41,877 nucleotides of DNA from an uncultured Oscillospiraceae bacterium (lineage in GTDB: Bacteria > Bacillota > Clostridia > Oscillospirales > Oscillospiraceae). Shown here one piece after another: positions 2,668 to 37,414 of the stretch. The position numbers and the translations under genes were made by a program. The notes beneath the pieces were generated by a model. The model was not told where the DNA came from. It searched no databases and saw only the letters and a list, made by a program, of their open reading frames with translations. Position 1 is the stretch's first letter. Each line of letters starts with the position of its first letter. The stretch is taken from assembly GCA_947632155.1 (NCBI GenBank), contig CANROF010000019.1:1-41877 (forward strand). Reading direction: 5' to 3'.

Positions 2668-5166
2668 TTAAATATACCTGCCCGTGACGCTCTCAGGGCA
2701 CGCCTTTATGTCCTCCGGCGTGCCGCAGGCGATAACGCGGCCTCCGTGTATGCCGCCGCCGGGGCCCATGTCAACCACGTAATCGGCGGACCGTATGACG
2801 TCCAGGTCGTGCTCGATGACGACAACGGTGGCGCCCCGGGCCGTCAGGCTCCGGAACACGTCCAAAAGTGTCCTCACATCCAGCGGGTGGAGGCCGATGG
2901 TGGGCTCGTCAAAGGCAAAGACGGTGTCCTCCTGTCCCCGGCCCATCTCCCCGGCCAGCTTGAGCCTTTGGGCCTCGCCGCCGGAAAGGCCCGGCGTCTC
3001 CTCCCCCAGGGTCAGATACCCCAGCCCCAAGTCGTGGAGCACCGAAAGCCGCCGCTCCACATTGGGCAGGTCCCGGCAGGCCCTCAGCGCCTCGTCCACG
3101 CTCATGTCCATGAGCTCCGGGAGCGACCGGCCCTCCCCGCCCTTTTTGGGGACGCGCTTTATGAGATACGTCTCTTTGGAGTACCGGGAACCCCGGCATT
3201 CCGGGCAGGGGATGTCCACATCCGGCAAAAACTGCACGTCCAGGCTGATGGTCCCCGTGCCGTCGCACACGGGACAGCGGAGCCTCCCCGTGTTGTAGGA
3301 AAAGTCCCCGGCGTTATAGCCCCGGCGCTTCGCCTCCGGGGTCCGGGCGTAGGCTTTTCTCAGCTCGTCGTGGACGTCGGCGTAGGTGGCCACGGTGGAG
3401 CGCACGTTAATGCCGATGGGAGTGGCGTCGATGAGCTTCACGTTTTTTATGCCCGGGGCCTCGACGCTCTTCACGTGGGCCGGAAGCTCCGCGCCGGAAA
3501 TGAGGCTCTCCAGCGCCGGAACAAGGCTCTCCAGGACCATGGTGGTCTTGCCGGAGCCGGACACGCCGGTGACGGCGATGAGCCGCCCCTTTGGAAGCTC
3601 CACCCTCAGCGGCCGGACGGTGTGGATCTCGTCCGTCGTGAGCCGAAACGTCCCCAGCGCGAAGATCTCCCCCCGGGAAAGCCCGCTTTTTGTGCCGGCG
3701 CTCTCCCTTCCCGCTAAAAACGGGCCTATTTTCGAGTCCGGGTCCCGCAGGATTCGGGAAAGCCCGCCCTGGGCGATGATACTGCCGCCCTTGGCCCCGG
3801 CCTCCGGGCCCAGCTCGATGAGGTAGTCCGCGTGGGACAGGATAGCGGTGTCGTGGTCCACCAATATGACGGAGTTCCCGTCGGCCAGAAGGTCGTCCAT
3901 GACGCCGGTGACGCCCTCGATATTCTTGGGGTGCAGGCCGATGGAGGGCTCGTCCAGCACATAGAGCACCCCGGTGGTGCGGTTGCGCACGGCTCGGGCA
4001 AGCTGCATCCTCTGCCGCTCCCCGGTGGAGAGGGTGGAGGCCTCCCGGTCCAGGGTCAAATACGAAAGCCCCAGGTCCATAAGGCGCCTGGCGGCGTGGC
4101 TGAAGGACTCGACGATGCTCTCCGCCATGGGCCGCATCTCCTCCGGCAGGGACCCGGGCACGCCCTCCACCCAGAGGGCCAGGTCCGAGAGCGTCATCCG
4201 GCAGGCCTCCGAAAGGGGGATGCCCCGTAAAAGCGGCGCCCGGGCGGCGTCCGACAGGCGGCTCCCGCCGCACTCCGGGCAGGGGCAGGTCTTGAGGAAT
4301 TTTTCCACCCGCTTCATGCCCTTCTCGTCCTTCACGTGGGAGAGGGCGTTTTCCACGGTGTAGACGGCGTTATAATAGGTGAAGTCCATCTCCCCGGCGG
4401 TGTTGGTCTTTTCGTTGTGGTAGAGCAGATGGTATTTTTTCGCCTCCCCGTGCAGGACCGCCTCCCGCTCCCGTTCAGTGAGCTCCCGGAAGGGCACGTC
4501 GGTGCGCACGCCCAGGTGGTCCCGGGCGATGTCCTTCATAAGCGACCACATCAGCGTCTGCCAGGGCGCCACGGCCCCCTGGTCGATGGTGAGGGAGTCG
4601 TCCGGGACAAGGGTGGACTCGTCCACGGTCCTCACCGTCCCGGTGCCGTCACAGCGGCGGCAGGCCCCGGCGGAGTTGAAGGCCAGGTCCTCCGCGCCGG
4701 GGGCGAAGAAGCGCTCCCCGCACTCCGGACACGTAAGCTCCAGCCCCGCCGCCACGTTGAGGGACGGCGGGACATAGTGCCCGTTGGGACACCTGTGGGA
4801 GGCAAGGCGGGAGTACATGAGCCGCAGGGAGTTTAAAAGCTCCGTCCCGGTGCCGAAGGTGCTGCGTATCCCCGGGACCCCCGGCCGCTGCCGCAGGGCC
4901 AGCGCCGCCGGGACGTAGAGGATCTCGTCCACCCGGGCTTTCTCCGCCTGGGTCATGCGCCGGCGGGTGTAGGTGGACAGGGACTCCAGATACCGCCTGG
5001 ACCCCTCGGCGTACAGCACGCCCAGGGCCAGGGAGGATTTTCCGGAGCCGGAGACGCCGGCGATGCCCACGATCTTGTTGAGAGGGATGTCAACGTCGAT
5101 GTTTTTGAGGTTGTGGACCTTTGCCCCGCGCACCTCGATGCGTTGGGGGACGGTGTTGTCTGACAT
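2668..5166 (-). CDS. UvrA-like ABC ATPase (class II, UvrA2/DrrC type)
   Basis: The 832-residue protein has two ABC ATPase halves of the UvrA kind. Each has a Walker A (GVSGSGKSS near the N-terminus and GVSGSGKTT in the middle), a signature ([16 protein letters not shown]) and a Walker B ([20 protein letters not shown]). Cysteine pairs of the CxxC type mark zinc modules in both halves. Repair UvrA is about 940 residues; the shortfall fits class II UvrA proteins, which lack most of the UvrB-binding region and occur as second copies, some tied to resistance to DNA-binding drugs. It probably binds DNA but may not load UvrB. The start is the ATG after ACGGAGATT. The gene leads a minus-strand pair with the GH3 gene, and nothing links the two functionally. 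I would not call it uvrA. Confidence 0.88.
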
Positions 5167-5214: not shown

Positions 5215-5438
5215 TATACCATACCCGCAAAGCGGGGATGGTATATTCGCCATGTTTTTCGGTTCCCGGCGAAGCCGGGGAGAAAAACGGCGTTAAATCA
5301 AGGATAATATCCGCTCATGCGGACATTATACCATACCCGCAAAGCGGGGATGGTATATTCGCCATGTTTTTCGGTTCCCGGCGAAGCCGGGGAGAAAAAC
5401 GGCGTTAAATCAAATATAATATCCGCTCATGCGGATAT
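5215..5438. repeat. Tandem duplication of a 112-bp unit with three hairpins
   Basis: Copy 1 runs 5215-5326 and copy 2 runs 5327-5438, with only three differences seen between them. Each unit holds three inverted repeats: ATACCAT-a-CCCGC with its partner, TCCCCGGC with GCCGGGAA, and ATAATATCCGC with GCGGATATTAT. It fills most of the gap between the UvrA-like gene and the TIR gene, which are divergent. It encodes no convincing protein. It looks like a structured mobile or regulatory repeat duplicated in place. Confidence 0.85.
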
Positions 5439-5483
5439 TATAGCATAGATGAAAAGGTTTTTGGCAAAAAATTTAATAAAACC

Positions 5484-5513
5484 TGTTCAAAATTTATTCC
5501 GCTATGATATAAT
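5484..5513 (+). promoter_or_regulatory. Extended -10 promoter of the TIR-LRR gene
   Basis: A perfect TATAAT at 5508-5513 is preceded by TGA (TG-n extended -10) at 5505-5507. The -35 region at 5484-5491 is poor (TGTTCAAA), which fits an extended -10 promoter or one needing an activator. The expected start near 5520 leaves a leader of about 36 bases with AGAGGGGG before the ATG at 5556. Confidence 0.6.
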
Positions 5514-5555: not shown

Positions 5556-7574
5556 ATGGCAAAAAGTGAAGAGATTCTGGGCGTTGCGCCCTACAACGGG
5601 ACCGAGGACTACATATTCATCAGCTACAGCCACCGGGATACGGACACCGTCCTGCCCATCCTCCGGCGCATGAAGGAGGCCGGATACAGATTTTGGTATG
5701 ACGAGGGCATTGACCCCGGCTCTGAGTGGCCGGAGTCCATCGCCGACCACCTGAGCCGCGCCAGGGTGTGCCTGGCGTTCATGTCCGCCACCTCCCTGGC
5801 GTCCCAGAACTGCCGGCGGGAGATCAACTTCGCCCTGTCGCGCAACTTAGACTTCCTCTCCGTCATCTTAGAGCCCGTGGAGATGAGCCCGGGGATGGAG
5901 ATGCAAATCTCCACCTACCAGTCGATCCTGCGCTACAAGTATAAGAGCGGCGAGCAGTTTTTGGAAAGGCTCCTGGGCGTGGAGCTGCTTTCCCCCTGCC
6001 GTGAGGTCCCGGCGGAGACGCCCGGCCAGGTCCCCGCGGCCCAGGCACCCGCCGCCCCGGCCCCCGCGGTCAGCCCCGCGCCAAAGAGCGTCCCCAAGGT
6101 CAAAAGGCCCCCGGAGAAGGCACCCTCCGCCGGGAAAACCGGCAAGAAGAAGCGCCTTCCCCTCCTTCTCGGCGGGGCGGTCCTGGCGCTGGCGCTTATC
6201 ATCGTCGTCGCCGTGGCCTTCTCCGGCGGAGGCGGCGGCTCGGGCCGCACGGCCACGGTGGGCGGGACGATTTTGACCGACTCCTCCTCCAACGTGAAGC
6301 TGGAGGGACTGCGGCTCACCGCCCCGGAGCTGGAGGAGCTGGCGAAATTCGAAAAATGCACCACGCTCACCCTCACCGGCTGTACCTTTGAGGACAGCGC
6401 CGAGAAGAAGCTGGGGGGCTTTGCAAGCCTCCGAACGGTGAAGCTCACGGACTGCCGGGGGCTTACGGACCTCTCCTGGGCGGCGGATTTGGAGCTATAC
6501 GGTCTGACCGTCACCGGCTGCGGCATGGACGATGACGTGATGGCCACGCTGACAGGCGGCAGCTTTACAAATCTCGACCTCGGCGGGAACGGGCTGACGC
6601 GCATCCCGGTTCTCGACAACGCCGGGAAGATCACCGCCCTGACGCTGGACGGCAACCCCCTGGGCTCCGTCAAGGACCTGGAGGGCTGGACGTCCCTCCG
6701 GGAGCTTTCCGTCTCCGGCTGCTCTCTCACCGGCCTCGACGGGCTCCAGGGCCACCAGAAGCTGACCTCCCTTTGCGCTGGGGACAATGCCATTACGGAC
6801 CTTACGCCCATCGCGGACCTCATCTACCTTGAGACTCTGGACCTGAAAAACAACCAGGTCGCCACCTTAGAGCCCCTTCAGTATTGCGAAAAGCTGAGGA
6901 CCGTGTCCCTCCGCGGGAACACGGAGCTTTTGGGCGTGGGGACGTTGGCGAAGAGCGCCGGGACCCTCTCAAGGCTGGACGTCAGCGGCGTCCGGTCCGT
7001 CACCAGCCTTGATTTCCTCGCGGCCGGCTCCTCCCTCACCTTCCTCTACGCCGAGAACTGTGCCCTTACAAATCTCAAGGGGCTGGAGGACCACGCGGGG
7101 CTCATCGAGGCGGCGTTTCCGGGGAACGGCATCGACGACATCTCGGCCCTGCGGGACAAGCCGAAGCTGAGGTACCTGGACCTCTCCCGCAACGCCCTGA
7201 CGGCGCTTCCGGACCTGGGGACCACCTTCTCGGAGGGGTCCAGCCCCAGGCTGGTGCTCTCCGGCAACGGCCTTACTTCTCTCGCAAATCTGCCGGACGT
7301 CAGCTTTTTCGGGCTCCTGCTGGACGGCAACCCCCTGACTGACCTCTCCCCCCTTGCGGGAGCGCGCGGGACGTATCTGGCCTTCGACTGCGGCGAAGGC
7401 GTGTCCCTGGAGGGGCTCCGGGAGACGGGATTTTCCACCTTCTGGGTCACGGACCTGCATCTGAGCCAGCAGGCGGACCTTGAGGGGCTGGGGCACACGG
7501 TGAATTACATGACCTCCCAGGAGGCTTTCCAGAAGCTGGACGGGTATTACTCCAGCGCACAGCCCGATTTTTAA
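5556..7574 (+). CDS. TIR domain - transmembrane - leucine-rich repeat protein
   Basis: The 672-residue protein begins with a TIR domain (about 17-140). It shows the DYIFISYSHRD start, the FWYDEGIDPGSEW segment and NCRREI, in which E89 sits where TIR NADases keep their catalytic glutamate. A Pro/Ala-rich linker (about 150-190) and a basic patch (KTGKKKR) lead into one membrane helix (201-222). The basic patch places the TIR domain in the cytoplasm. A glycine run follows, then about 400 residues of leucine-rich repeats (for example LETLDLKNNQV, LRYLDLSRNAL), which would lie outside the membrane. This is a mirror image of Toll-like receptors, where the LRR part is N-terminal. Bacterial TIR domains commonly cut NAD+ in immune signalling. 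The next gene follows 12 bp later and is probably a functional partner. The ligand and the enzymatic activity are untested. Confidence 0.9.
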   Translation: MAKSEEILGVAPYNGTEDYIFISYSHRDTDTVLPILRRMKEAGYRFWYDEGIDPGSEWPESIADHLSRARVCLAFMSATSLASQNCRREINFALSRNLDFLSVILEPVEMSPGMEMQISTYQSILRYKYKSGEQFLERLLGVELLSPCREVPAETPGQVPAAQAPAAPAPAVSPAPKSVPKVKRPPEKAPSAGKTGKKKRLPLLLGGAVLALALIIVVAVAFSGGGGGSGRTATVGGTILTDSSSNVKLEGLRLTAPELEELAKFEKCTTLTLTGCTFEDSAEKKLGGFASLRTVKLTDCRGLTDLSWAADLELYGLTVTGCGMDDDVMATLTGGSFTNLDLGGNGLTRIPVLDNAGKITALTLDGNPLGSVKDLEGWTSLRELSVSGCSLTGLDGLQGHQKLTSLCAGDNAITDLTPIADLIYLETLDLKNNQVATLEPLQYCEKLRTVSLRGNTELLGVGTLAKSAGTLSRLDVSGVRSVTSLDFLAAGSSLTFLYAENCALTNLKGLEDHAGLIEAAFPGNGIDDISALRDKPKLRYLDLSRNALTALPDLGTTFSEGSSPRLVLSGNGLTSLANLPDVSFFGLLLDGNPLTDLSPLAGARGTYLAFDCGEGVSLEGLRETGFSTFWVTDLHLSQQADLEGLGHTVNYMTSQEAFQKLDGYYSSAQPDF

Positions 7575-7586
7575 GGAGGCGGCAAA

Positions 7587-9338
7587 ATGGTCATTTTGAT
7601 ACTCTATCTCATCGGCCTTGCCGGCGTGAGCTGGATACTGAGGAACAAGAGCCTGCAGCTTCGAAGCTTCCTCACGGTGGGGTATAACTACCTCTTTATC
7701 ATCCCCCTCTATTTCTTTACGCTCCTGCCGGACTGTGAGACGACGGCGGAGGTCTTGAATCTCCTTATCCGCTGCGCCTATCAGGCGCCCAAGGCCATGA
7801 CCTTCTGGGCGGATGTGGACCTTTTCAACGACCCGGCCATTACGCTGCTGTTTTACATAGTCTCCGTCTACACCGCCAGGACCCTGCTCCTCTTTTTCGC
7901 GCGGCGCTTCTTTACCGCCGCCGCCACAAGGACCGCCATAGTCCTGCGCCGCCGGGTCTTCGCCGTCTGCGGCAAGGCCGACGACGCCGCCGCCATGATT
8001 CGGGAGATACGCTCTCAGGACCGCCGCGCCCCCATCCTCTTCATCCCCCAGTGCGACGCCGACCGGGAGGCGGACCTGCGCGTCCCCACCGAGACTCGCC
8101 CCTGGGCGAAATTCCTCAGGGCGGGCCGGGACAACCACATCATACTCCTTCCGGATGAAAACCACGGGAATTTGGGGCGCCTCCGGGAGCTCAACGAGCT
8201 GGGGCGCCGGGTGCCGGGGCTGAAGGTCACGGCGTTTCTTGACAACGACATCCTCCGGTTTGACGACATGAGCTTTCCCGATCTGGACGCGTACCTCGTC
8301 TCCCGGGAGCAGCTGCTTATCCGCCGCTTCCTCATGGACGACCCGCCCCTGGCGGCCCTCAAAAAGCGCGGCGGGCGGGTGGAAAAGGGCGTCTATGTGC
8401 CGGACGGGCCGTTTTCCCTTGGAATCATCGGCCTTTCCGCGCTGAGCCGTGAGTTTTTGCTGGAGACTTGGGAGAACGCCGCCTTCGCCTCCTCCGCCCC
8501 GGACGGGCGCGGGTTTGAGGCGTTCATCGCGGACAGGAACGTTGCCGAGAGGCGCGCGCCCCTCTTCCTGGACGTACCTCAGCTCCGCGGCCAGGAGAAT
8601 TTCACCTGGATCGACGCCGCCCCGGAGTCCGAGGAGGCCGTGGCCGCCGTCCGGGAGCGCCTGGGGTCCCTGAATCAGATCCTCATCGCCACGGCGGACA
8701 CAAAGCTCAACCTGGAGCTGGCCACGCGGCTGTCGCGGCTCTTTGACCGGGAGTGCCCGGGGGACGCCCACCCGCAGCTTGTGGTGGCGGTCTTTGAGAA
8801 CGTGGACAGCGAGGTCCAGGTCCTCGCCAGGGACAACAAGGGCGTGTTTCTGAGGTGCAGCAGCGCCCAGTTCACCTACTCCGAGCTCATACAGCGCCGC
8901 ACGGACGCCGACGCCGAGGCGCTCCACCGGGCTTACGGCGGGAATTCCCTCCACGGGAAGGACTGGAACGCCATCGGAACGTACCTGCAAAACTCCAACC
9001 GGGCCGTGGTGTGGGACATCCCCAACAAGCTCCTGCTGGCCGGGGACCTCGCCGGGAAGACTCCCGAGGAGCGGGAGAGCGTCTACTGGGAGCTTGCCAA
9101 ATACGAGCACCTTCGCTGGTGTGTCTATCAGTACACCCACGGCTGGACGCTCCTGCCCGCCTCCCAGCTCACCGACCGGGAGCGGCAGGACCACGTCACC
9201 AAGCGCGCCGCCTCCCGCCGCCACGCCTGCCTCGTCCCCTGGGACGACTTGGACGCCCTGCCCCAGGAGCGCCCGGGGCTCTTGAAGTACTACGACTTTG
9301 AGAATGTCGCCGCCGTCTTCGAGAAAACGCCCCAGTGA
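7587..9338 (+). CDS. Membrane protein with Rossmann/TrkA-like regions and a C-terminal RyR domain
   Basis: The 583-residue protein has hydrophobic segments near 1-18, 32-48 and 83-105. A cytoplasmic part follows with two Rossmann-like starts, RRRVFAVCGKADDAA near residue 125 and FSLGIIGLSALSREF near 276, which resemble TrkA-N/RCK folds. The C-terminus (about 495-575) matches the RyR repeat: LAKYEHLRWCVYQYTHGWT followed by an HACLVPWDDLD motif. From memory, comparative work on nucleotide-based conflict systems (Burroughs and Aravind) placed bacterial RyR domains beside TIR and TrkA-type modules and proposed that they bind NAD-derived nucleotides. GGAGGCGGCAAA precedes the ATG, and the 12-bp gap implies co-expression with the TIR-LRR gene. 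A gated pore or membrane-disrupting role is an inference. Confidence 0.78.
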   Translation: MVILILYLIGLAGVSWILRNKSLQLRSFLTVGYNYLFIIPLYFFTLLPDCETTAEVLNLLIRCAYQAPKAMTFWADVDLFNDPAITLLFYIVSVYTARTLLLFFARRFFTAAATRTAIVLRRRVFAVCGKADDAAAMIREIRSQDRRAPILFIPQCDADREADLRVPTETRPWAKFLRAGRDNHIILLPDENHGNLGRLRELNELGRRVPGLKVTAFLDNDILRFDDMSFPDLDAYLVSREQLLIRRFLMDDPPLAALKKRGGRVEKGVYVPDGPFSLGIIGLSALSREFLLETWENAAFASSAPDGRGFEAFIADRNVAERRAPLFLDVPQLRGQENFTWIDAAPESEEAVAAVRERLGSLNQILIATADTKLNLELATRLSRLFDRECPGDAHPQLVVAVFENVDSEVQVLARDNKGVFLRCSSAQFTYSELIQRRTDADAEALHRAYGGNSLHGKDWNAIGTYLQNSNRAVVWDIPNKLLLAGDLAGKTPEERESVYWELAKYEHLRWCVYQYTHGWTLLPASQLTDRERQDHVTKRAASRRHACLVPWDDLDALPQERPGLLKYYDFENVAAVFEKTPQ

Positions 9339-34852: not shown

Positions 34853-34881
34853 TTGAAACCGCGGCTCTTCGGTGCTATAAT
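34853..34881 (+). promoter_or_regulatory. Promoter of the M3-SLH peptidase gene
   Basis: TTGAAA (34853-34858) and a perfect TATAAT (34876-34881) are spaced by 17 bp. It lies directly after the recQ stop. Confidence 0.7.
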
Positions 34882-34945
34882 CCTTATATATATCTTTATT
34901 GATATACATAGTAAAATAAAAAAACCAAAAATGGAGGAAACACAC

Positions 34946-37414
34946 ATGAAAAAGAAGCTGCTATCTCTGCTTCTGGCGCTGTGCATGGTGCTCACCCTGG
35001 CGCCTGCCGCGCTGGCCGACGAGGAGACTGGCGAGGAGCCGCCCACCACAGCCCCCGCCACATCAACTGCCCCCGCGGAAGAACCCCGCGACACCAATTT
35101 CTTCACCGATGTTCCCCACGCCGACATGGACTGGGAGGATATGGAATATATCCCGGTGGACGGAGACGAGTTCCTCGCCGCCATTGACCAGGTCGAGGCT
35201 CTCATCGGCACCTCCGCTAACGCCGTAACGGTCGAAGAGCTGTTCAAGAACGTGGCCGACATGTACATGACCATCCGCGCCAACATAAGCTGGCTGAATA
35301 TCCAGCTCTCCCTGGATTACGCGAATACGGAATATTCCGACGCCTACGACGCCGAATACGATCTCTATCTGGATATCTTCGACCCGTTCATTTTCCTGGT
35401 CAAGGACATTCTGAACTCCCCCTGCAAGGACTATTTCGTGGAGCAGGAGAAGCTGACCCAGGACGACATCGACTCCTACCTTGAGTACGGCGGGATGACC
35501 GATGAGCAGAAGGAGCTGCAGTCCCAGATCGCCACGCTTGAAAACTCCTATGACGCCGTAGCGGCCACCTGCCCCGACAGCGTTGAGATCGACGGTGTGG
35601 TGTGGACCGAGGAGTCCCTTGATGCCGCCTACACGGCCGAGGAGATCACCGACGAGGAATATATCACCATCCTCAACGCCCTTATTGACGCCGAGTATTC
35701 CCCTCTCGGCGAGCTCTATATGCAGCTTCTGGACCTGAACACCCAGCTTGCCGCCACCTATGACTATGATAATTACAGCGAGTTCTCCTACGTGGAGGAG
35801 TACGGCCGGGACTACACCGCGGAGGAGATCGCGGCGTTCTGCGAGGCCGTCCGGGAATATTATGTTCCCCTCCGTTATATTCTTTCGCAGTCCGTGGACG
35901 AAGAAGGCAAAAATAACTTCGTTATTCAGGAAACCGTCAACGATCTGTTCTTCCAGGACCCCGTGGCCTACAATATGGTCATGACCACGGACTTCACCAC
36001 GGACGAGGTCCTTGCCATGGTCGAGCCCTACATCGGCAAGATGTCCGACGAGCTCCTGGAGGCCTATGACTACATGCTGGAGCACGGCCTTTACGACATC
36101 GCCCCCGACGAGAAAAAGGGCGAAGGCGGCTTCACCACCGTCATCAGCCGTTACGGCTCTCCCTTCTTCTTCAATAACCCCTATGGCTACTATGCTGATT
36201 TCAGTACCATCATCCACGAGTTCGGCCACTACGATAACTTCTACTGGCATCCCAGCGGATGGAACGACGGAAGCTGCTCCATCGACGTGGCCGAGGTCCA
36301 CTCCCAGGCCCTGGAGCTGCTATTCCTGCAGTTCTATGAGGACATCCTGGGCTCCGCCTCTACGTTCATGGCTGAGGAAACTGTCTCCAACATCCTTGGC
36401 GGCGCCATGGTGCAGGGAGCCCTTATCGGAGAGCTTGAGAACTACGCCGGTTCCACCGAGGATGTGACCCTGGAGGATATCTGCGACAAGTACGCCCAGT
36501 TGCTCATGGACTATGGCATGACCGACAACGAGATGGTCGCCCAGATCAACCGGTACGGTTGGCTGGAAATCCACCATGTCATTGAACAACCCATGTACTA
36601 CATAAGCTACGCCACCTCCGCTTCCGGCGCCTTTGCCTTCTGGCTGGAGGCCCAGAGCGACGGTTACGAGGCCGCCACCGACCATTATCTGGAGTTCGTC
36701 AGCCAGTCCGTCTACACCCCGTTTCTGGAGCAGTTCGAGAACGCCGGTGTGGATAACCCCCTGACCCCCGAGTATGTCAAGGCGGTTTCCGAGGCCATTA
36801 ACGAGTACTTCGATCTGGAAGCCCGTTACAACGAAATTCTCAACCCCACCCCCACCTTCAGCGACGTCCCCTTTGACGATTCCTACAACACCCTTGTGGA
36901 GTTTGCCCACAGCATCGGCGCCATTGACGGCGACGGCAGCGGAAGCTTCCATCCCAACGACGCCACCAACCGGGCGCAGGTCGTTCAGGCCCTGTACAGC
37001 GTGTTCGGAAAATACCTCCCCGCCAGCGGCGAGGCTTCTCCCTTTGCCGATATTACCGGCACGGAGTGGTACGCCGAGGCCGCCAACTGGGCTTACGAGT
37101 ACGGCATAATCACCGGAATCTCCGAAAATGACCTGCTCACTTTCAACGGCGGCAGCGGTGTCACCCGCGAGATGATGGCCACCATCATTTACAAAGTCGC
37201 CACCCTCTTCTACGGCCCCCAGACCCCGGAGGATCAGCCCTACACAGACGCCGCCAGCATCAGCCCGTGGGCCGTTGAAGCCATCAACTGGCTCACCGAG
37301 GTGGGAATGCTCTCCCCCGTGGACGACGCCGGGAACATCAATCCCCAGGCCGCTATGAACCGCCTGAACCTCGCAAGTTACGCTGTAAACCTCTTCCAGA
37401 CAATTTTCGCGTAA
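34946..37414 (+). CDS. Secreted M3-like metallopeptidase with three C-terminal SLH repeats
   Basis: The 822-residue protein has a signal peptide (MKKKLLSLLLALCMVLTLAP, cleavage near ALA-DE at about 24) and a Thr/Pro/Ala-rich stretch. The body (about 60-620) is a mostly helical M3-type peptidase: H424-E-F-G-H428 forms the HExxH zinc site, and E450 in AEVHSQALE stands where thimet oligopeptidase has its third ligand. Three S-layer-homology repeats follow (about 638-693, 695-755 and 765-822), with FSDVPFDDSYNTLVEFA and FADITGTEWYAEAANWA. M3 enzymes are mostly cytoplasmic peptide-cleaving enzymes, so this one appears moved to the cell surface. ATG 34946 follows ATGGAGGAAACACAC. It has its own promoter and a terminator. 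Confidence 0.9.
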   Translation: MKKKLLSLLLALCMVLTLAPAALADEETGEEPPTTAPATSTAPAEEPRDTNFFTDVPHADMDWEDMEYIPVDGDEFLAAIDQVEALIGTSANAVTVEELFKNVADMYMTIRANISWLNIQLSLDYANTEYSDAYDAEYDLYLDIFDPFIFLVKDILNSPCKDYFVEQEKLTQDDIDSYLEYGGMTDEQKELQSQIATLENSYDAVAATCPDSVEIDGVVWTEESLDAAYTAEEITDEEYITILNALIDAEYSPLGELYMQLLDLNTQLAATYDYDNYSEFSYVEEYGRDYTAEEIAAFCEAVREYYVPLRYILSQSVDEEGKNNFVIQETVNDLFFQDPVAYNMVMTTDFTTDEVLAMVEPYIGKMSDELLEAYDYMLEHGLYDIAPDEKKGEGGFTTVISRYGSPFFFNNPYGYYADFSTIIHEFGHYDNFYWHPSGWNDGSCSIDVAEVHSQALELLFLQFYEDILGSASTFMAEETVSNILGGAMVQGALIGELENYAGSTEDVTLEDICDKYAQLLMDYGMTDNEMVAQINRYGWLEIHHVIEQPMYYISYATSASGAFAFWLEAQSDGYEAATDHYLEFVSQSVYTPFLEQFENAGVDNPLTPEYVKAVSEAINEYFDLEARYNEILNPTPTFSDVPFDDSYNTLVEFAHSIGAIDGDGSGSFHPNDATNRAQVVQALYSVFGKYLPASGEASPFADITGTEWYAEAANWAYEYGIITGISENDLLTFNGGSGVTREMMATIIYKVATLFYGPQTPEDQPYTDAASISPWAVEAINWLTEVGMLSPVDDAGNINPQAAMNRLNLASYAVNLFQTIFA

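Follow-up and report, generated by a model that had tools for sequence, protein, structure and literature searches.

A two-gene unit on a contig of 41,877 nucleotides from an uncultured gut bacterium of the Oscillospiraceae (assembly GCA_947632155.1, contig CANROF010000019.1; this whole stretch is called the window here) encodes a TIR protein with leucine-rich repeats (LRRs) behind a single transmembrane (TM) helix (gene 1) and, 12 bases further on, a membrane protein with two RCK domains and a C-terminal RyR domain (gene 2; Table 1). The adjacency of TIR and RyR genes is conserved far above chance, and with a probability of about one half the pair constitutes a Thoeris-like unit, in which an NAD+-derived signal made by the TIR domain would be read by the RyR domain and would gate the membrane protein. 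An earlier note, written from the letters of this DNA alone, had described a TIR domain with a catalytic glutamate, one membrane helix followed by LRRs and, 12 bp downstream, a gene for a membrane protein with Rossmann parts; all of these descriptions hold, the Rossmann parts forming a tandem RCK arrangement in the predicted model.

The pairing was assessed with one scan of genome contigs, which yielded 46 loci, or 47 once the window is added (L001-L006, being repeats of the window, L017 and L024, are left out of the counts); the window and L007-L025 make up clade A (20 loci). TIR frames were recognized using a profile of 11 TIR domains, all from proteins with a Pfam TIR_2 match, that was then widened once; its matches at the source loci arise partly by construction, and the Pfam scans are independent of it. 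Co-occurrence of the two families, which the earlier note had named as a check on its proposal, is evident: 35/47 loci have a TIR frame at most 6 kb from the RyR gene and 21/47 have one at most 200 bases away, the corresponding figures for clade A being 17/20 and 16/20. After collapsing at 80% identity, 28/40 clusters have a TIR frame within 6 kb and 17/40 within 200 bases, while clade A gives 12/15 at both distances. The chance expectation, derived from the TIR_2 density in 22 carrier genomes (48 matches in about 57.8 Mb, from rounded sizes), is approximately 0.4% for 200 bases and 1.3% for 6 kb, and even this density overstates chance because the 22 genomes themselves carry TIR-RyR pairs. 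As a control, 66 TrkA_N matches in the same genomes were inspected, none of which (0/66) has a TIR match within 6 kb; the only one on the same contig as a TIR match is 68 kb away from it. That the two genes are chance neighbours or unrelated membrane genes would be in line with the 12/47 loci in which the profile finds no TIR within 6 kb (L025, L031, L037, L040, L044 and L045, as well as L016, L024, L028, L038, L039 and L049, these last six flanked by less than 4 kb of contig on one or both sides). This explanation is nevertheless very improbable, since the pairing is present in 28/40 clusters, where about 1% would be expected, and persists through tandem, divergent and convergent gene orders. 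In L028, a frame cut by the contig end (8160-9815) resembles, by eye, the part behind the helix of the TIR-TM protein of L030, and the TIR partner may thus be cut off there.

Further pairs extend this picture. The genome of L007 holds a second TIR-RyR pair with adjoining frames, a membrane-RCK-RyR frame adjoins a TIR frame in L053, and L054 combines a TIR-TM gene with an RyR-only frame of 98 amino acids. RyR-only frames of about 100 amino acids beside TIR genes in Clostridia (that of L054 at 6274-6567, and others in L058, L061-L063 and L065-L067) are possibly host counterparts of the phage protein RyDEP. In Metabacillus litoralis (L052, 10956-13932), a TrkA_N protein with a sub-threshold RyR match is followed by a small TGHRD frame and then a TIR gene.

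Identification of the C-terminal domain of gene 2 as RyR, as proposed in the earlier note, is upheld despite a score below the Pfam gathering cut-off (PF02026; 13.5 bits vs 27.4, E 0.088), because the best structure rows for the predicted model are all RyR domains (28 VIA-align rows, with the Repeat12 fold), a profile match is present, and the family is homologous to channels with an above-cut-off RyR domain. Foldseek E-values for the domain alone are weak (best 0.028). The Repeat12 fold is common to animal ryanodine receptors, the remaining architecture of which is unrelated. Within clade A, RyR is the best-conserved part (mean pair identity 0.59 for the second repeat and 0.53 for the first, compared with 0.30-0.41 for the membrane and RCK parts), and four residues correspond to the ligand pocket of RyDEP (Table 1). 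RyDEP numbering was matched through the RyR-only protein of L054, whose pocket spacing (His, +3 Trp, +25 His, +42 Asp) equals that of RyDEP, and not by aligning the RyDEP sequence itself. According to a 2026 report, phages deploy RyR domains against Thoeris signals: the founding RyDEP degrades 2'/3' cyclic ADP-ribose (cADPR), while among eight further phage homologues 6/8 bind this molecule and 0/8 degrade it (PMC13232231). The binding of NAD-derived nucleotides by RyR domains, mentioned in the earlier note as a proposal, thereby has experimental backing in phage proteins. The window protein resembles RyDEP and its relatives, a group that binds cADPR isomers (PMC13232231), in having an RyR domain with the same four pocket residues; in contrast to those phage anti-defence proteins, it is a membrane protein of the host, encoded next to a TIR gene.

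The second point of comparison is TM-macro Thoeris, in which TIR proteins signal to a membrane effector (PMC11204291). There, as is predicted here, a TIR enzyme gene lies beside that of a membrane effector (TM-macro ThsA) reading an NAD+-derived nucleotide (PMC11204291); in the window, the reader is an RyR domain on an RCK ring in place of a macro or SLOG domain, and LRRs follow the membrane helix of the TIR protein. Neither form of the ThsA effector (SIR2-SLOG or TM-macro) is matched by gene 2 in PADLOC or Pfam: the Pfam scan finds no SIR2, SLOG or macro domain, and PADLOC gives no match at E 1. Gene 2 also has no match among viral contigs. Gene 1 partially matches the PADLOC ThsB model (E 5.2e-5). 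Taken together, the conserved pairing, the ligand binding of phage RyR proteins (PMC13232231) and the precedent of TM-macro Thoeris (PMC11204291) make a TIR signal passed to an RyR reader the most economical reading. Among the papers listed in literature searches, none was seen to describe a TIR-RyR gene pair. Comparative genomics by Burroughs et al. (NAR, 2015) may already have linked prokaryotic RyR domains to TIR or TrkA_N.

Gene 2 has a channel-like layout, for which ion conduction is a candidate function. In its predicted model (mean predicted local distance difference test score, pLDDT, 89.8), the tandem RCK gating ring is closest to the folds of CASTOR/DMI1 and GsuK, and the GsuK structure rows cover the membrane part too. 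A predicted ring of this kind is shared with RCK-gated K+ channels and gating rings (GsuK, MthK, CASTOR/DMI1), unlike which gene 2 lacks the TVGYGD filter and possesses an additional C-terminal RyR. In the family alignment (28 rows, of which 16 belong to clade A), the filter position reads TF.[GA] or similar in clade A, with Phe73 in all 16 rows of this clade, and clade B has a different residue there. An identity as NAD-binding oxidoreductase was rejected, as RCK rings rank above such enzymes in the structure comparison.

Relatives of this family include genuine channel proteins. A TVGYGD-containing frame is found overlapping or next to the RyR frame in 14/47 loci, none of them in clade A, and the three of these 14 proteins that were scanned all present Ion_trans_2 together with an above-cut-off RyR domain. 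Between the channel family (11 of the 14 and L056) and the window family, homology extends from RCK1 to RyR (hhalign probability 99.9, E 1.7e-33), and K+ channel proteins ending in RyR stand beside both an RyR protein and a TIR gene in L026 (9742-11259), L027 (10926-12506) and L030 (9331-10875). At E 0.001, PADLOC has no match for the K+ channel-RyR protein of L027, its RyR neighbour, one RyR-only protein and the RyR protein of L053. The architecture of gene 2 and these K+-channel relatives are the reasons for suggesting ion flux as the output.

On the side of the TIR gene, the full TIR-TM-LRR form is a rare version, and the general unit combines a TIR domain and a variable sensor with an RyR protein that stays the same. 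A whole-length match to gene 1 occurs, among 295 genomes of the order, in the window's own only, with 11 others matching in the TIR region; 14 plasmid records match gene 1, and all matches among the 10 listed lie in the LRR region. As judged from domain matches, the sensor part is swapped while the RyR protein stays constant: beside related RyR proteins, the partner is TIR-TM-LRR in the window and L007, TIR-TM-WD40-like in L008, L012, L019 and L021 (by Pfam, with mostly weak or partial WD40/propeller matches), TIR-TIR-TPR in L017 (over two frames) and L018, TIR-NB-ARC-TPR in L014, L020 and L023, and TIR-Sel1 in L020. L009-L011, L013 and L022 were grouped with L008 solely by N-terminal sequence or TIR profile match, and L015 with L018 by two TIR matches alone. 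Several TIR partners, including the NB-ARC-TPR sensors, have no predicted membrane helix. In the tree, the window and L007 fall together (100/100) inside a five-row group (100/100), the other three rows of which are WD40-type, with a weak node of their own (86/75). The TIR-TIR-TPR gene of Agathobaculum desmolans (L017, 11790-14599) is split over two overlapping frames, whereas L018 has a single one. In two loci, DUF4062-type proteins replace the TIR gene beside RyR (L025, 5185-9825 and 12323-15304, flanking the RyR gene on both sides; L055, 6185-10441), the assignment resting on Pfam for the first frame and on our own small profile for the other two; this hints that DUF4062 may act like a TIR.

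The LRR part of gene 1 is of the type found in Listeria internalins, its nearest solved structure being internalin A (3e-31), and internalins, which are secreted or wall-bound, have no TIR. Both the internalin-type repeats and the positive charges preceding the helix would be consistent with LRRs located outside the cell. The earlier note had likened this arrangement to Toll-like receptors, of which only the layout stands, with LRRs on one side of a single membrane helix and TIR on the other. The window order is TIR-TM-LRR with an N-terminal TIR and not LRR-TM-TIR, its LRRs are internalin-like, and its partner is a membrane RyR protein; homology to Toll-like receptors was rejected on account of the reversed order and the different LRR type.

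Under the Thoeris-like reading, the extracellular LRRs would detect a ligand (phage, another bacterium or the host), bringing TIR domains together, which would cleave NAD+ via Glu89 to give an ADP-ribose-type signal. This signal would bind the partner RyR domain through His508, Trp511, His546 and Asp570, upon which the RCK ring might change shape and open or cluster the membrane part, with ion flow leading to growth stop or cell death. The more ambitious form of this proposal, a complete immune pathway from a two-gene surface receptor via a TIR nucleotide to channel-like gating by RyR, with RyR domains having started, as the K+-channel relatives suggest, as sensors of TIR-made cADPR-type signals, is put forward tentatively and at clearly less than even odds. 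If correct, bacterial TIR systems would include an ion-flux output through an RyR-carrying gating-ring protein and interchangeable sensors on both sides of the membrane (LRR or WD40-like beyond the helix, NB-ARC inside), and host RyR domains would gain a function matching the use of phage RyR domains against Thoeris signals described in the 2026 report (PMC13232231). The evolution of RyR domains as cADPR sensors would also become directly testable in a small bacterial protein, which bears on the open question of cADPR action on animal ryanodine receptors.

Several observations weigh against this reading, beginning with the 12 loci without a nearby TIR. A Pfam RyR search without seeding gives 31 matches in 26/391 genomes of the class. 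Of the regions seeded with such matches, 9/29 have a TIR frame no more than about 1 kb away, and 7 of the 9 involve one of the 11 small RyR frames; this linkage is above chance and far from universal, which implies other roles for some RyR genes. A TVGYGD gene stands beside the RyR gene in 0/20 clade A loci, and among the 16 genomes of the window and 15 clade A members a frame that combines Ion_trans_2 with RyR occurs in a single genome only (L056), without a TIR frame in the surrounding 12 kb. The K+ filter T.G[YF]G is found in 0/28 rows of the gene 2 family, and the membrane part alone has no significant hhalign alignment with a K+ pore. Because of these last two findings conduction stays a candidate only, and the pore suggested in the earlier note is retained in part: the gating-ring layout of K+ channels and the distant relatives adjoining a K+-channel gene speak for it, the filter, which is not TVGYGD, against it. 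In addition, RyR-only proteins do not all have the second pocket histidine (L058 and L062 carry Thr there), and the conserved His/Asp pair is the same that RyDEP uses to destroy signals.

The retained catalytic pair keeps alive an alternative in which the RyR protein is an off-switch, binding or hydrolysing the TIR signal at the membrane and restraining the TIR as RyDEP does with Thoeris. Counterparts of RyDEP His75 and Asp117 exist in His508 and Asp570, gene 2 has no canonical pore, and RyR-only frames of about 100 amino acids accompany TIR genes (7/11 small frames in the 29 regions; L054). A degrader, however, needs neither a gating ring nor a membrane part, the related K+ channel-RyR proteins argue for gating, and in the 2026 report only the founding RyDEP degraded the signal, in contrast to the other tested homologues (PMC13232231); this alternative is judged unlikely. 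It is quite unlikely that the TIR domain is a killing NADase, with the RCK/RyR protein sensing a fall in NAD+ or a rise in ADP-ribose and secondarily adjusting K+ or membrane potential. The sole PDB sequence matching the TIR domain at E ≤ 0.01 is the CRISPR-associated TIR protein Cat1 (E 0.0021), which destroys NAD+, and structures of GsuK, one of the close folds, contain NAD or ADP according to their titles; yet gene 2 is devoid of GxGxxG, and its most conserved part is RyR and not RCK. A final alternative to the Thoeris-like reading is gut surface sensing without an antiviral role, the LRR ectodomain reading a host or microbial ligand and the pair reversibly changing the membrane state. It draws on the internalin-type LRRs, on their identity to L007 of 194/427 residues (45%) compared with 125/150 (83%) for the TIR part, and on the lack of a clear defence island, known defence genes accounting for 0/24 neighbouring frames by Pfam (6 without a match at E 1e-6), which likewise counts against an immune unit. 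Improbable as it appears, it also has to contend with an immune-like patchy distribution (3/295 genomes of the order, the window's own included) and with the equally immune-like swapping with NB-ARC-TPR sensors that have no membrane helix.

Table 1. Features of the two-gene unit in window coordinates (aa, amino acids).
Feature	Position	Strand	Basis
Promoter-like site TTCAAA-16-TATAAT, TG before second hexamer, 5' of gene 1	5486..5513	+	10/12 positions; consensus match only
Gene 1, TIR-TM-LRR protein, 672 aa	5556..7574	+	
TIR domain, aa 20-124	5613..5927	+	Pfam TIR_2 E 3.2e-20, 73.3 bits vs cut-off 28
Predicted catalytic Glu89	5820..5822	+	Aligned Glu in 11/11 TIR domains of the profile alignment
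Membrane helix, best 19-residue window aa 203-221	6162..6218	+	Positive charges (KKKR) on N-terminal side
LRRs, about aa 246-640, internalin-like	6291..7475	+	LRR_4 E 8.5e-28; limits approximate
Ribosome-binding site AAGGAGG ahead of gene 2	7573..7579	+	
Gene 2, membrane-RCK-RCK-RyR protein, 583 aa	7587..9338	+	
Membrane part: helices 2-17, 23-49, pore-like helix 53-74, helix 83-120	7590..7946	+	Predicted model
Filter-like segment aa 68-76, PKAMTFWAD, not TVGYGD	7788..7814	+	
RCK1 Rossmann domain, about aa 121-250	7947..8336	+	Profile and predicted model
RCK2 Rossmann domain, about aa 274-425	8406..8861	+	Predicted model
RyR Repeat12-like domain, about aa 430-578	8874..9320	+	Profile match and structure comparison of predicted model
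His508...Trp511, counterparts of RyDEP H75 and W78	9108..9119	+	28/28 family rows
His546, counterpart of RyDEP H100	9222..9224	+	28/28 family rows
Asp570, counterpart of RyDEP D117	9294..9296	+	28/28 family rows
Terminator-like stem-loop	9520..9541	+	8 such sites in region vs 5.0 (standard deviation 2.4) in shuffles

The two-gene unit stands alone, with a UvrA-like gene upstream and a histidine kinase gene downstream, both on the opposite strand, and each of the two genes has one match in its own genome. Among 10 neighbouring frames compared with PADLOC, matches to ATPase models, mad3 among them, come from the two ABC-type ATPases, and a response regulator weakly matches SduA. The second half of the UvrA-like gene (2668-5166, minus strand) matches the mad3 model at E 4e-69; since an ordinary ABC ATPase of the window matches it as well (E 1.7e-24), both matches probably reflect the shared ABC ATPase fold. 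Upstream of gene 1, at 5215-5445, lie two tandem copies of a palindrome-built element of 121 bases, which has 9 matches genome-wide in total (93-100% identity) and represents a dispersed repeat. Further along the window, at 34853-37414, a large protein with an S-layer homology domain is encoded, which appears ordinary.

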